NCBI RefSeq assembly: GCF_016865365.1
Contig: NZ_AP024469.1
Location: 735,001 to 799,000 of the forward strand
Length of the DNA stretch: 64,000 nt
From: Geobacter sp. SVR
Lineage (GTDB): Bacteria; Desulfobacterota; Desulfuromonadia; Geobacterales; Pseudopelobacteraceae
Direction of reading: 5' to 3'
Shown here: piece after piece, positions 20,965 to 45,633 of the stretch
Numbering within the stretch: the stretch's first letter is position 1
Layout: the number at the start of each line of letters is the position of its first letter
Translations under genes and position numbers: made by a program
The notes under the pieces: model-generated
Seen by the model: the letters and a program-made list of their open reading frames with translations, nothing else
What the model was told of the DNA's origin: nothing
The model's database searches: none

Positions 20965-21601
20965 TTAGGGTAAACCCCGGCTCTGCCGGGGACCCCAATA
21001 GTTTGACAGTTCCTGAAATATGTAGAAGCCTCCCTAACGTGAACCGCTCAAAGTACACGAAAAGGAGGCTTCAATGGACGACACACAAAGTTTATGCCAC
21101 ACGAAATGGGATTGCAAGTATCACGTTGTATGGATTCCAAAATGTCGCCGCAAGGTGCTGTTTGGTCGAATCCGGAAATATCTTGCCGACTTGTTTCATA
21201 GTCTAGCCAGGCAGAAAGAGTGCAAGATAGTGGAAGGGCACCTTCAACCTGATCATATTCACATATTGATATCGATCCCACCAAAATACTCCGTTGCACA
21301 GGTGATCGGTTTCATCAAGGGCAAAAGTGCAATCCATATTGCGCGAATGTACCTTGGTCAGAAGAAGAACTTTGCTGGTATGAGCTTTTGGGCACGTGGC
21401 TACTTTGTATCCACTGTCGGTGCTGACGAGGAAACAATTGCCAACTACATCAGGAACCAGGAAGACGAAGACAAACGTCTGGATCAATTGACATTTTTGC
21501 CCGAAGAATGACCACCACTCGTGGTGGTCAGATAATCTTTTGAAAAAACCGCTTCGAGCGGTTCACGACTTTGAAAGCCCCCGGCTTTGCCGGGGATGCT
21601 T
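20965..21601 (+). mobile_element. IS200/IS605-family insertion sequence, tnpA only
   Basis: The element is about 637 bases long. The left end has a hairpin (ccccggc-tct-gccgggg, about 20974-20990) and the right end a similar one (cccccggctttgccgggg, about 21580-21597), the subterminal hairpins expected of single-strand-transposing elements. A further palindrome (ccaccact-cgtggtgg, near 21510-21530) follows tnpA. No target duplication is seen, as expected. The exact ends are uncertain by a few bases: both the junction after TTCC and one after TTGAT (20957-20961) restore the host frame. Confidence 0.85.
21074..21511 (+). CDS. tnpA: IS200/IS605-family transposase TnpA
   Basis: The 145-residue protein is a Y1 HUH transposase. 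The metal-binding HUH motif is His61-Ile-His63 in QPDHIHILIS, and the catalytic Tyr is Tyr125 in IANYIRNQ. The N-terminal KYHVVWIPKCRRKVLFG stretch is typical of the family. A strong ribosome binding site (aaaggagg) precedes the ATG. No tnpB is present. The gene is intact and probably active. Confidence 0.96.
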   Translation: MDDTQSLCHTKWDCKYHVVWIPKCRRKVLFGRIRKYLADLFHSLARQKECKIVEGHLQPDHIHILISIPPKYSVAQVIGFIKGKSAIHIARMYLGQKKNFAGMSFWARGYFVSTVGADEETIANYIRNQEDEDKRLDQLTFLPEE

Positions 21602-43288: not shown

Positions 43289-44448
43289 GTGCGTTCCAAT
43301 TCTGTAAGTAACAGGCGGGCGATGTTTGCGGAGGCCCCCCCACCGCCTAGCCTTTGCCGTATCAGGGCCAGACGCCCCCTGACGGCTGTTGTGTAAGCGT
43401 CGTCGTCAAGAAAACGACCGATCTCCGCTGCAATGGCAACAGGATTAGCCTGTTCCTGGATCAGTTCCTGAACGACCGTTTCCCCTGCCACGATATTGCA
43501 GAGACCGATATTGTCGATCTTGACCAGCCGTTTTGCCAGTTGATAGGTGAGCGGTGAGAGCTTGTAGATGATCACCATTGGCGTTTCGACCAGGGCGATC
43601 TCGAGGGTGACCGTGCCGGACACGGAGATGACCGCATCGCAGGCGCGGATCAGGTCGTGGATGCGTTCGTGGGTGATGGTGACATTCAGTCCGGCCGCCT
43701 TTAGCTGAGGGGTGATATGGTCGGCGCGCAGGGTGGAGGCCAGCGGCAGGACGAACTGGACGCCGGGGAAGCGATCCCGCAGCAATCCTGCAGCAGCGAC
43801 GATGACCGGCAGCAGCCGTTCGATCTCGTTTTTGCGGCTGCCGGGAAACAGCCCGATGATTTTTTGCTGCGGATCGAGCCCGAAGCTGGTCGCTGCTGCC
43901 GCACGGTTCATCTCCACCTTGACGAGATCCAGCATGGGGTGCCCGACAAAGGTGGCCGGTACGCCAGCCCCCTGATAGAAGGGGAGCTCGAACGGCAGGA
44001 TCACCGCCATGTGGTTCACCAGACGGGCGATCTTTTTGACCCGTCCCTGGCGCCAGGCCCAGATCTGGGGGCTGATATAGTAAAATACCTTCACTCCCGA
44101 TTTTCTCGCCACCTTGGCCAGCCGCAGGTTGAAACCCGGGTAATCGATCAGGACCAGAATGTCGGGCGGGTCGTTCAGCAGGATCCGTTTCAGCGTGATG
44201 AAGGCGGAGGAGATCACGTCAAAATGCTTTAGCACCTCCACCAGCCCGACCACGGCCATGTCGGCCGAATCGACCAACGTTTCGACCCCTGCTTCGCGCA
44301 TCCTGGCACCGCCGATGCCGAAAAAACTGAGATGCGGGTCGAGCTTGAGCGCCTCGCGGGCCAGCTCCGCCCCGTAGATGTCTCCGGATGCCTCACCGGC
44401 CACGATCATTATTCTGCGATGTGCAGATTGTAAAACCGTTGCTGTCAT
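43285..44448 (-). CDS. lpxB: Lipid-A-disaccharide synthase
   Basis: LpxB joins UDP-diacylglucosamine and lipid X into the lipid A disaccharide. The 387-residue GT19 protein has IMIVAGEASGDIYGAELAREAL, IDYPGFNLRLAK, the YYISPQIWAWRQGRVKKIA stretch and LFPGSRKNEIERL. The start ATG at 44448 is directly preceded by a run of eight U and a GC hairpin that contains the ribosome binding site, which is unusual. It overlaps msbA by 4 bases. Confidence 0.96.
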   Translation of the reverse strand: MTATVLQSAHRRIMIVAGEASGDIYGAELAREALKLDPHLSFFGIGGARMREAGVETLVDSADMAVVGLVEVLKHFDVISSAFITLKRILLNDPPDILVLIDYPGFNLRLAKVARKSGVKVFYYISPQIWAWRQGRVKKIARLVNHMAVILPFELPFYQGAGVPATFVGHPMLDLVKVEMNRAAAATSFGLDPQQKIIGLFPGSRKNEIERLLPVIVAAAGLLRDRFPGVQFVLPLASTLRADHITPQLKAAGLNVTITHERIHDLIRACDAVISVSGTVTLEIALVETPMVIIYKLSPLTYQLAKRLVKIDNIGLCNIVAGETVVQELIQEQANPVAIAAEIGRFLDDDAYTTAVRGRLALIRQRLGGGGASANIARLLLTELERT

Positions 44449-44477
44449 AAAAAAAAGACCCCCTTTACGACAGGGGG
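44449..44477 (-). promoter_or_regulatory. Terminator-like hairpin enclosing the lpxB ribosome binding site
   Basis: On the minus strand CCCCCT (44477-44472) pairs with AGGGGG (44464-44459) around a 7-nt loop. Two bases later come eight T (44456-44449) and then the lpxB ATG. The 3' arm is the only good Shine-Dalgarno sequence for lpxB, so the hairpin has the shape of an intrinsic terminator or a translational gate between gnnB and lpxB. Confidence 0.65.
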
Positions 44478-44538
44478 ATCGAGAGGATATGGCTGCTGCG
44501 TATTTTTCGGAGTGGCACCGCTTGTCCCGGCCGATGGA

Positions 44539-45633
44539 CTAGCCAAGTAGTGACTCCCTGACCGCCTCCGCCACCACGCGTACGGATTCCTCCGGCATCT
44601 CCGGATAGATCGGCAGGGACATGCAACGGCTGGCAACATTTTCAGCTATTGGTAGGGAAATGCCGGCACAGGCGGCGGCGAAGACATCCTGCCTATGCAA
44701 TGGAATCGGGTAATAGACGGCGCATGCGATCTTCCGTTCCGACAAATGGGCCATAACGGCATCGCGGCGGTCGGTCAGCAGGGTGTACTGGTGATAGACA
44801 TGTACTCCTTTGCCATCCTCGTACGGCACGGTCGCTACATCCCTGAGCAGCTCCGAGTACAGGTGCGCCACTCTTCTGCGTCCGTTGTTGAACTGATCGA
44901 TCCGCTTCAGCTTGACGCGCAGGATCGCGGCCTGGATGTCGTCCAGACGGCTGTTGAAGCCGATCACGCTGTGATGGTAGCGTACCCGGCTGCCGTGATT
45001 GCGTAGCACCTTGAGCTGTTCGGCCAGCTCCGGTGTGGCGCAGGTGACCAGGCCTCCATCGCCGTAGCAACCCAAGTTCTTGCTGGGAAAGAAGCTGAAA
45101 CAGCCGAGGCTGCCATGGGTGCCGGTCATGCTGCCACCGGTGGCGGCACCGAAGGATTGGGCGCAATCCTCGATCAGCTGCAGTTTGTGGGCTTCGCAGA
45201 TGGCCTTGATTTCACTCAGCTCGGCGGGTTGGCCGAACAGGTGCACCGGAATGACCGCCCTGGTGCGAGGCGTGATGGCCGCCTCGATCAGGGTGGGATC
45301 GATATTGAAGGTCTGCGGATCGATGTCGACGAAAACCGGGGTGGCACCGGCGTAGCAGATCGCTTCGGCCGTGGCGATAAAGGTGAAAGGGGAGGTGATG
45401 ACTTCGTCACCCGGGCCGATGCCGGCGGCCAGAATTGCCAGGTGCAGGGCATCGGTGCCGGATGCGCAGGATACGGCATGGGCAGCGCCCAGATAGGCGG
45501 CGCTCTCTTGTTCGAAAGCAGTGACATTGGGTCCCAGGATGAATTGGGAGCTCTCGATGGCATCCAGCACGGCCCGATCGATTTCCTGCTTCAGGTCGTG
45601 ATATTGGGTTTTAAGGTCCACCATTGGAATCAT
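44539..45633 (-). CDS. gnnB: DegT/DnrJ/EryC1-family aminotransferase, probable UDP-GlcNAc3N synthase
   Basis: The 364-residue PLP enzyme has ASGTDALHLAILAAGIGPGDEV, the DCAQSFGA and FSFFPSKNLGCYGDGG stretch with the PLP-binding Lys near residue 185, and LDDIQAAILRVKL. It sits between gnnA-like and lpxB and next to lpxA. In Acidithiobacillus and Leptospira the GnnA/GnnB pair converts UDP-GlcNAc to UDP-GlcNAc3N for amide-acylated lipid A, and that is the best reading here. Aminotransferases for O-antigen sugars are an alternative. The start at 45633 has ggaggt 6 bases upstream. Confidence 0.85.
   Translation of the reverse strand: MIPMVDLKTQYHDLKQEIDRAVLDAIESSQFILGPNVTAFEQESAAYLGAAHAVSCASGTDALHLAILAAGIGPGDEVITSPFTFIATAEAICYAGATPVFVDIDPQTFNIDPTLIEAAITPRTRAVIPVHLFGQPAELSEIKAICEAHKLQLIEDCAQSFGAATGGSMTGTHGSLGCFSFFPSKNLGCYGDGGLVTCATPELAEQLKVLRNHGSRVRYHHSVIGFNSRLDDIQAAILRVKLKRIDQFNNGRRRVAHLYSELLRDVATVPYEDGKGVHVYHQYTLLTDRRDAVMAHLSERKIACAVYYPIPLHRQDVFAAACAGISLPIAENVASRCMSLPIYPEMPEESVRVVAEAVRESLLG

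Follow-up and report, generated by a model that had tools for sequence, protein, structure and literature searches.

A palindromic repeat as the probable source of the hairpin at the lpxB ribosome-binding site of Geobacter sp. SVR

In Geobacter sp. SVR, the predicted ribosome-binding site of lpxB lies in one arm of a small hairpin just upstream of the start codon. Analysis of the window (the whole 64,000-nucleotide stretch of DNA around this locus), of the genome and of its relatives indicates, with a probability of about 0.78, that this hairpin is the eroded half of an interspersed composite palindromic repeat, one arm of which was recruited as the predicted lpxB ribosome-binding site. The repeat, which is interspersed in this genome and in many relatives, would have ended up between gnnB and lpxB, separating lpxB from an earlier initiation signal; the outward-facing repeat end, AAAGGGGG(A/T)C, would now serve ribosomes as the lpxB Shine-Dalgarno (SD) sequence. 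Because the repeat itself is a palindrome, the recruited SD pairs with the opposite arm. As a kind of element it is unremarkable; that it recurs at lpxB is curious.

The lpxB leader and its repeat family

The features of the locus are collected in Table 1. The gnnB stop codon and the lpxB ATG are separated by 90 nt, and the 3′ end of this gap reads GATCCCCCTGTCGTAAAGGGGGTCTTTTTTTT-ATG on the minus strand. The stem-loop is composed of six base pairs, five of which are G-C, and one 7-nt loop; it is followed by TC and the T tract. The earlier note had described a 6-bp hairpin, eight T and the lpxB ATG in this order, and both sequence and coordinates bear this out. It had also named the hairpin arm as the sole good ribosome-binding site for lpxB, buried in the stem, and the predicted energies agree: among 12 start sites of the cluster, taken from the ORF calls (one further coordinate, with codon ACA, is not counted), the lpxB start has both the strongest anti-SD duplex (−11.3 kcal/mol for AAGGGGGT) and the highest opening cost (10.7 kcal/mol). 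Translation probably starts at the ATG at 44448; in many relatives the MIVAGEASGD core is preceded, as judged by eye, by (R)RI codons, so translation would begin upstream of this core.

Table 1. Features of the gnnB–lpxB region, in window coordinates
Feature	Position	Strand	Remark
lpxB, 387 aa	43285..44448	(-)	start ATG 44448-44446
T8 tract, hairpin to start codon	44449..44456	(-)	preceded by TC
Putative eroded right half of palindromic repeat	44451..44494	(-)	aligns with right half of L056 copy
Predicted Shine-Dalgarno AAGGGGGT of lpxB	44458..44465	(-)	3′ arm of repeat plus next base; 9 nt upstream of ATG
Stem-loop CCCCCTGTCGTAAAGGGGG	44459..44477	(-)	hairpin unit of repeat; single base (T7 to G) differs from CCCCCTTTNNNAAAGGGGG
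gnnB, gene upstream of lpxB	44539..45633	(-)	stop codon 44539-44541

The hairpin unit of the repeat, CCCCCTTTNNNAAAGGGGG, has 12 exact matches and three matches with one mismatch in the 4.72-Mb one-contig genome. The lpxB hairpin is one of these three, agreeing with the pattern at 15 of the 16 fixed positions. When up to two mismatches were allowed, the pattern gave 26 matches, several of which are register-shifted matches to one place, compared to 5 for the reversed pattern. The exact copies mostly reside inside composite palindromic repeats of roughly 80–110 bp. Ten loci were inspected with their flanks; they contain paired half-units, mostly arranged as AGTCCCCCTTTNNNAAAGGGGGATTTAGGGGGATTT - spacer - AAATCCCCC..CCCCCCTTTNNNAAAGGGGGG, with the AAATCCCCC-type blocks as the inner blocks. 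Two of the ten (L130 and L133) have the half-units in the reverse arrangement, and an extended arm with AGGCCCTTTGGGTCC is seen in some loci. With ACTT added, the hairpin unit is present, with at most one mismatch, in 31 of the 57 genomes searched, this one counted.

To compare the lpxB site with the family, we used a profile built from 12 half-units, which came from nine of the ten inspected loci and all lie away from lpxB. On the 64-kb window, the lpxB site was the only match at E < 0.1 (E 0.0013; the next match has E 0.61), with a match core at 44459–44483 on the minus strand. The block next to the hairpin is eroded: it reads ATATCCTCTCG where the inner block AAATCCCCCT is expected, and its alignment to the L056 copy contains mismatches and a gap. 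The profile found no second inverted half-unit in the gnnB–lpxB gap, and we therefore call the lpxB element a remnant, not a complete member of the family.

As the opening cost (about 10.7 kcal/mol) and the anti-SD gain (about −11.3 kcal/mol) nearly cancel, steady and moderate initiation is expected, without a switch; across the five leaders that carry the element, opening costs range from 10.6 to 14.7 kcal/mol and anti-SD duplexes from −10.7 to −11.4 kcal/mol. The hairpin would thus probably act as a constitutive throttle on lpxB, with moderate, unregulated initiation; RNA polymerase would mostly read through it, and no signal would open it.

Recruitment of a repeat end may have a second instance in this genome. 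In the copy at G000:C1:3826505-3826615 (L184), AAAGGGGGAGGC directly abuts the ATG of one 250-aa open frame, with GGGGG 4 nt upstream of the ATG; by eye, this frame resembles an ABC ATPase. In 76 genomes from the family, ATG is not clearly enriched after repeat ends (12, versus 8 for the control triplet GTA), and only three of these 12 open a frame of more than 20 aa. All three are lpxB, one of them cut by a contig end. In a set of 59 loci chosen for an ATG at 4–11 nt from the repeat end (59 of 60 matches, with the lpxB locus of G018 excluded), 13 open a frame of at least 100 aa, three of which are lpxB; for ends with ATG at 24–31 nt, the corresponding number is 3 of 9. The lack of clear ATG enrichment and the few long frames weigh against the favored reading and give no support to a general portable ribosome-binding site. 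Recruitment looks sporadic, with lpxB as the recurrent case.

The gnnB–lpxB gap in relatives

Both halves of the repeat are found in the gnnB–lpxB gaps of L056, L017 and L162 (genome G018), and the right half alone in that of L102, in all cases in the same orientation as in Geobacter sp. SVR. GGGGG ends 8–10 nt upstream of the lpxB start in all four. The SVR gap and the right half of the L056 copy align over 45 columns with a local score of 43, which was reached by none of 2000 dinucleotide shuffles and none of 1988 random 91-mers from the window. The SVR gap also scored above all 2000 shuffles against the L162 copy and against the L102 copy. Against the L017 copy, the likeness is within chance, with scores as high for 143 of the 2000 shuffles and for 67 of 1993 91-mers from the window. 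In addition, a BLAST search of the SVR genome with the L056 gap recovered better copies and did not return the lpxB site even at E 10. This miss and the L017 result weigh against repeat descent; the SVR copy is eroded.

At E < 0.01, the repeat profile matched 6 of 114 lpxB upstream regions, a set that includes some genomes twice. These six are the SVR region, L056, L102, L162, L017 and L051; the last is a duplicate of L017, and the matches thus represent five genomes. Two repeat subtypes can be distinguished by eye at the lpxB site among genomes. Three copies have the common junction GGGGGACTTTTT(C/T)ATG; at a similar junction, L056 has six T and both L102 and L162 have five, compared to eight in SVR.

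The two nearest relatives, both of the same genus, lack this repeat at lpxB, and their gap holds another repeat or none, which likewise weighs against repeat descent. In four close relatives (L003, L004, L007 and L044), the gap holds a different repeat, characterized by GTGTCTC motifs, whose core occurs with at most one mismatch in 15 of the 35 genomes searched, with many copies in several of them and none in SVR. To judge from these sequences, the gnnB–lpxB gap resembles a repeated landing site. The Oryzomonas-type gaps (L005, L006, L010 and L011; 84 nt, with CCCCCTGTTGTTGAAGGGATG or similar) look like the SVR hairpin by eye; as the profile gave no match there at E ≤ 10, they were not taken as members.

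The distribution of the element was mapped onto one tree of gnnB plus lpxB from 43 genomes, with the gap measured from the gnnB stop to the MIV codon. The element is present in five of the 43, SVR included. In 26, the gap is 13–34 nt, which is too short for the element; the SVR gap is 129 nt by the same measure. The remaining genomes comprise four with the GTGTCTC repeat, four of the 84-nt Oryzomonas type and four with other long gaps. The element label requires five changes on the tree, at least three of which are forced by well-supported branches, and it is not clustered: all 500 shuffled labels need no more changes than this. The changes and the lack of clustering indicate that repeats entered the gap on more than one occasion or were lost from it several times. 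One single old insertion that was lost several times, or exchange of the region, may lie behind this distribution; one junction is common to three copies. It is unlikely that the same repeat was captured on two or more occasions, in one orientation and at nearly the same position, as the hairpin of the lpxB ribosome-binding site, with the buried strong SD providing a useful fixed throttle on LpxB.

Termination, chance and switching

Among the alternatives, an intrinsic terminator or attenuator that lowers lpxB–msbA transcription relative to gnnAB in SVR survives best, though we consider it doubtful. The hallmark of intrinsic terminators, one G-C-rich stem followed by a T tract (here T8), is present. 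Using one scoring formula, applied by the same rule to all leaders, we obtained a positive score of 27 for the SVR hairpin, compared to 63 for a yardstick hairpin at G000:C1:3221351; however, the leaders of the four element-bearing relatives all scored below zero (−5, −13, −17 and −18). In SVR, the longer T tract could bring about partial termination. If termination were strong, lpxB and msbA might be starved, since no sigma-70-type site was listed between 44478 and 45633 by the consensus scan. The element is also missing from most of the genomes compared.

A chance hairpin around a G-rich SD, independent of any repeat, appears quite unlikely. Such shapes are common enough: the consensus scan found 11 terminator-like sites in a 12-kb stretch, compared to 9.3 ± 3.0 in shuffles, and CCCC-N4..14-GGGG occurs 22 times in the 64-kb window, with 28.9 expected. 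As neither shape is over-represented, the hairpin shape alone is no evidence. The two same-genus relatives that lack the element and the chance-level likeness to L017 also fit a chance origin. What goes beyond chance in the sequence comparison is the likeness of the lpxB hairpin to the repeat family of its own genome. The agreement at 15 of 16 fixed consensus positions and the profile E value of 0.0013 argue against a chance hairpin, as do the alignments to three of the four relatives' copies, which exceed 2000 shuffles, and the same position, same orientation and similar junction shared with those copies.

A dedicated translational switch, in which the lpxB SD stays buried in the hairpin and is released by a protein, a small RNA, a metabolite or temperature, is most improbable. 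It would fit the location of the SD, which is inside the stem except for its last base, and the opening cost, which tops those of the 12 starts scored. However, the element is absent from most genomes compared, the five sequences show no covariation, no Rfam family comes near threshold, and repeat descent already explains the hairpin. A conserved regulatory hairpin was rejected in view of the gap comparison, the tree and the pair counts. None of the eight pairs compared has a compensatory change (five sequences, 39 cells). All five element-bearing sequences have the same 3′ arm, AAAGGGGG, and the 5′ arm deviates in three, two of which belong to the extended repeat subtype and may have arrived in that form. 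For this reason, the arm pattern is weak evidence; it lends no support to selection on pairing, which may nonetheless operate. The arms of the SVR hairpin keep 15 of 16 consensus bases, whereas 5 of 16 columns in its flank are different from L056; the better-kept arms might be a sign of selection for pairing, although the positions are few. In Rfam, no family came near its cut-off for 44300–44700 (best 16.2 bits, cut-off 42), and riboswitches and known RNAs were dismissed on this ground. A CsrA site was also dismissed, because by eye the SVR arm lacks the GGA of the CsrA motif, which is contained in GGGGGAC of the relatives.

The idea of the earlier note that control of lipid A synthesis would be sensible here found no support, with the element in 5 of 43 genomes, 26 of 43 gaps too short for it, none of eight pairs compensatory and no Rfam family near its cut-off. 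The check it had proposed, on conservation of the stem and compensatory changes in relatives, gave a negative outcome: the same-genus relatives lack the element, and the eight pairs in five sequences do not covary. The stem is thus not conserved among close relatives, which is the comparative half of what the note would accept as refutation. If the hairpin descends from a repeat, as we favor, a terminator- or switch-like hairpin can arise as a by-product of repeat insertion. The case suggests that an interspersed palindrome can supply the ribosome-binding site of a lipid A pathway gene, and it calls for caution: the repeat families of a genome should be checked before regulation is inferred from SD-hiding hairpins.

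Related repeats and Y1 transposases

Two kinds of repeat in the literature come closest to this one. Palindrome-based families of ‘multicopy nucleotide sequences’, scattered between genes and often several per region, have been described for Geobacter (PMC2996986, PMC2700814). Like the lpxB repeat, they are interspersed palindromes; this comparison is by description. The G/C-rich intrastrand triplex motif (TM/PIT; PMC4666352) also contains one pyrimidine arm, one loop, one purine arm and a second purine block, and like the lpxB repeat it is intergenic, with some copies in inverted pairs. Its E. coli consensus is CCCTCNCCC..GGGNGAGGG, compared to CCCCCTTTNNNAAAGGGGG plus AGGGGGATTT here; different from TM/PIT, the lpxB copy of SVR has lost the clean extra block. 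According to the same paper, earlier work found no promoter or terminator activity for TM/PIT (PMC4666352). The MITE Chunjie of Geobacter uraniireducens, as summarized in one review (PMC10969869), resembles the lpxB element in being miniature and within an operon; different from the lpxB element, it is 235 bp in length and has terminal inverted repeats and direct repeats. The title cited there reads ‘without disturbing the operon structure’, whereas the review states that Chunjie disrupts one of two phosphate operons (PMC10969869). The titles and abstract beginnings listed for repeats and ribosome-binding sites contained nothing on this case, nor did those of the best 20 of 664 records on lpxB with SD or hairpin.

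The REP/BIME elements, in the descriptions linked to RAYT transposases (PMC2817692, PMC3733652), are likewise small palindromes in inverted pairs. Their copy number is ‘usually >100’ (PMC2817692), compared to about 15 hairpin units in SVR. A pattern scan of 3 kb around the two longer Y1 transposase frames of the genome (328 and 295 aa), both candidate RAYTs, found no copy of the lpxB repeat, and a REP/RAYT link was rejected on this basis.

Two further observations concern Y1 transposases. Inside the window, positions 21104–21460 on the plus strand carry one of the 14 identical-scoring Y1 (PF01797) transposase matches of the genome. Outside the window, five identical-scoring Y1 transposase matches are spaced ∼6.95 kb apart at G000:C1:208000-237500 (L183, L185). 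The first and the fourth stretch of this region share 99.9% identity across 6.5 kb, and the two stretches carry, as judged by eye, one 646-aa frame like a metal P-type ATPase and one frame like an ArsR-type regulator. The region is probably a tandem amplification.
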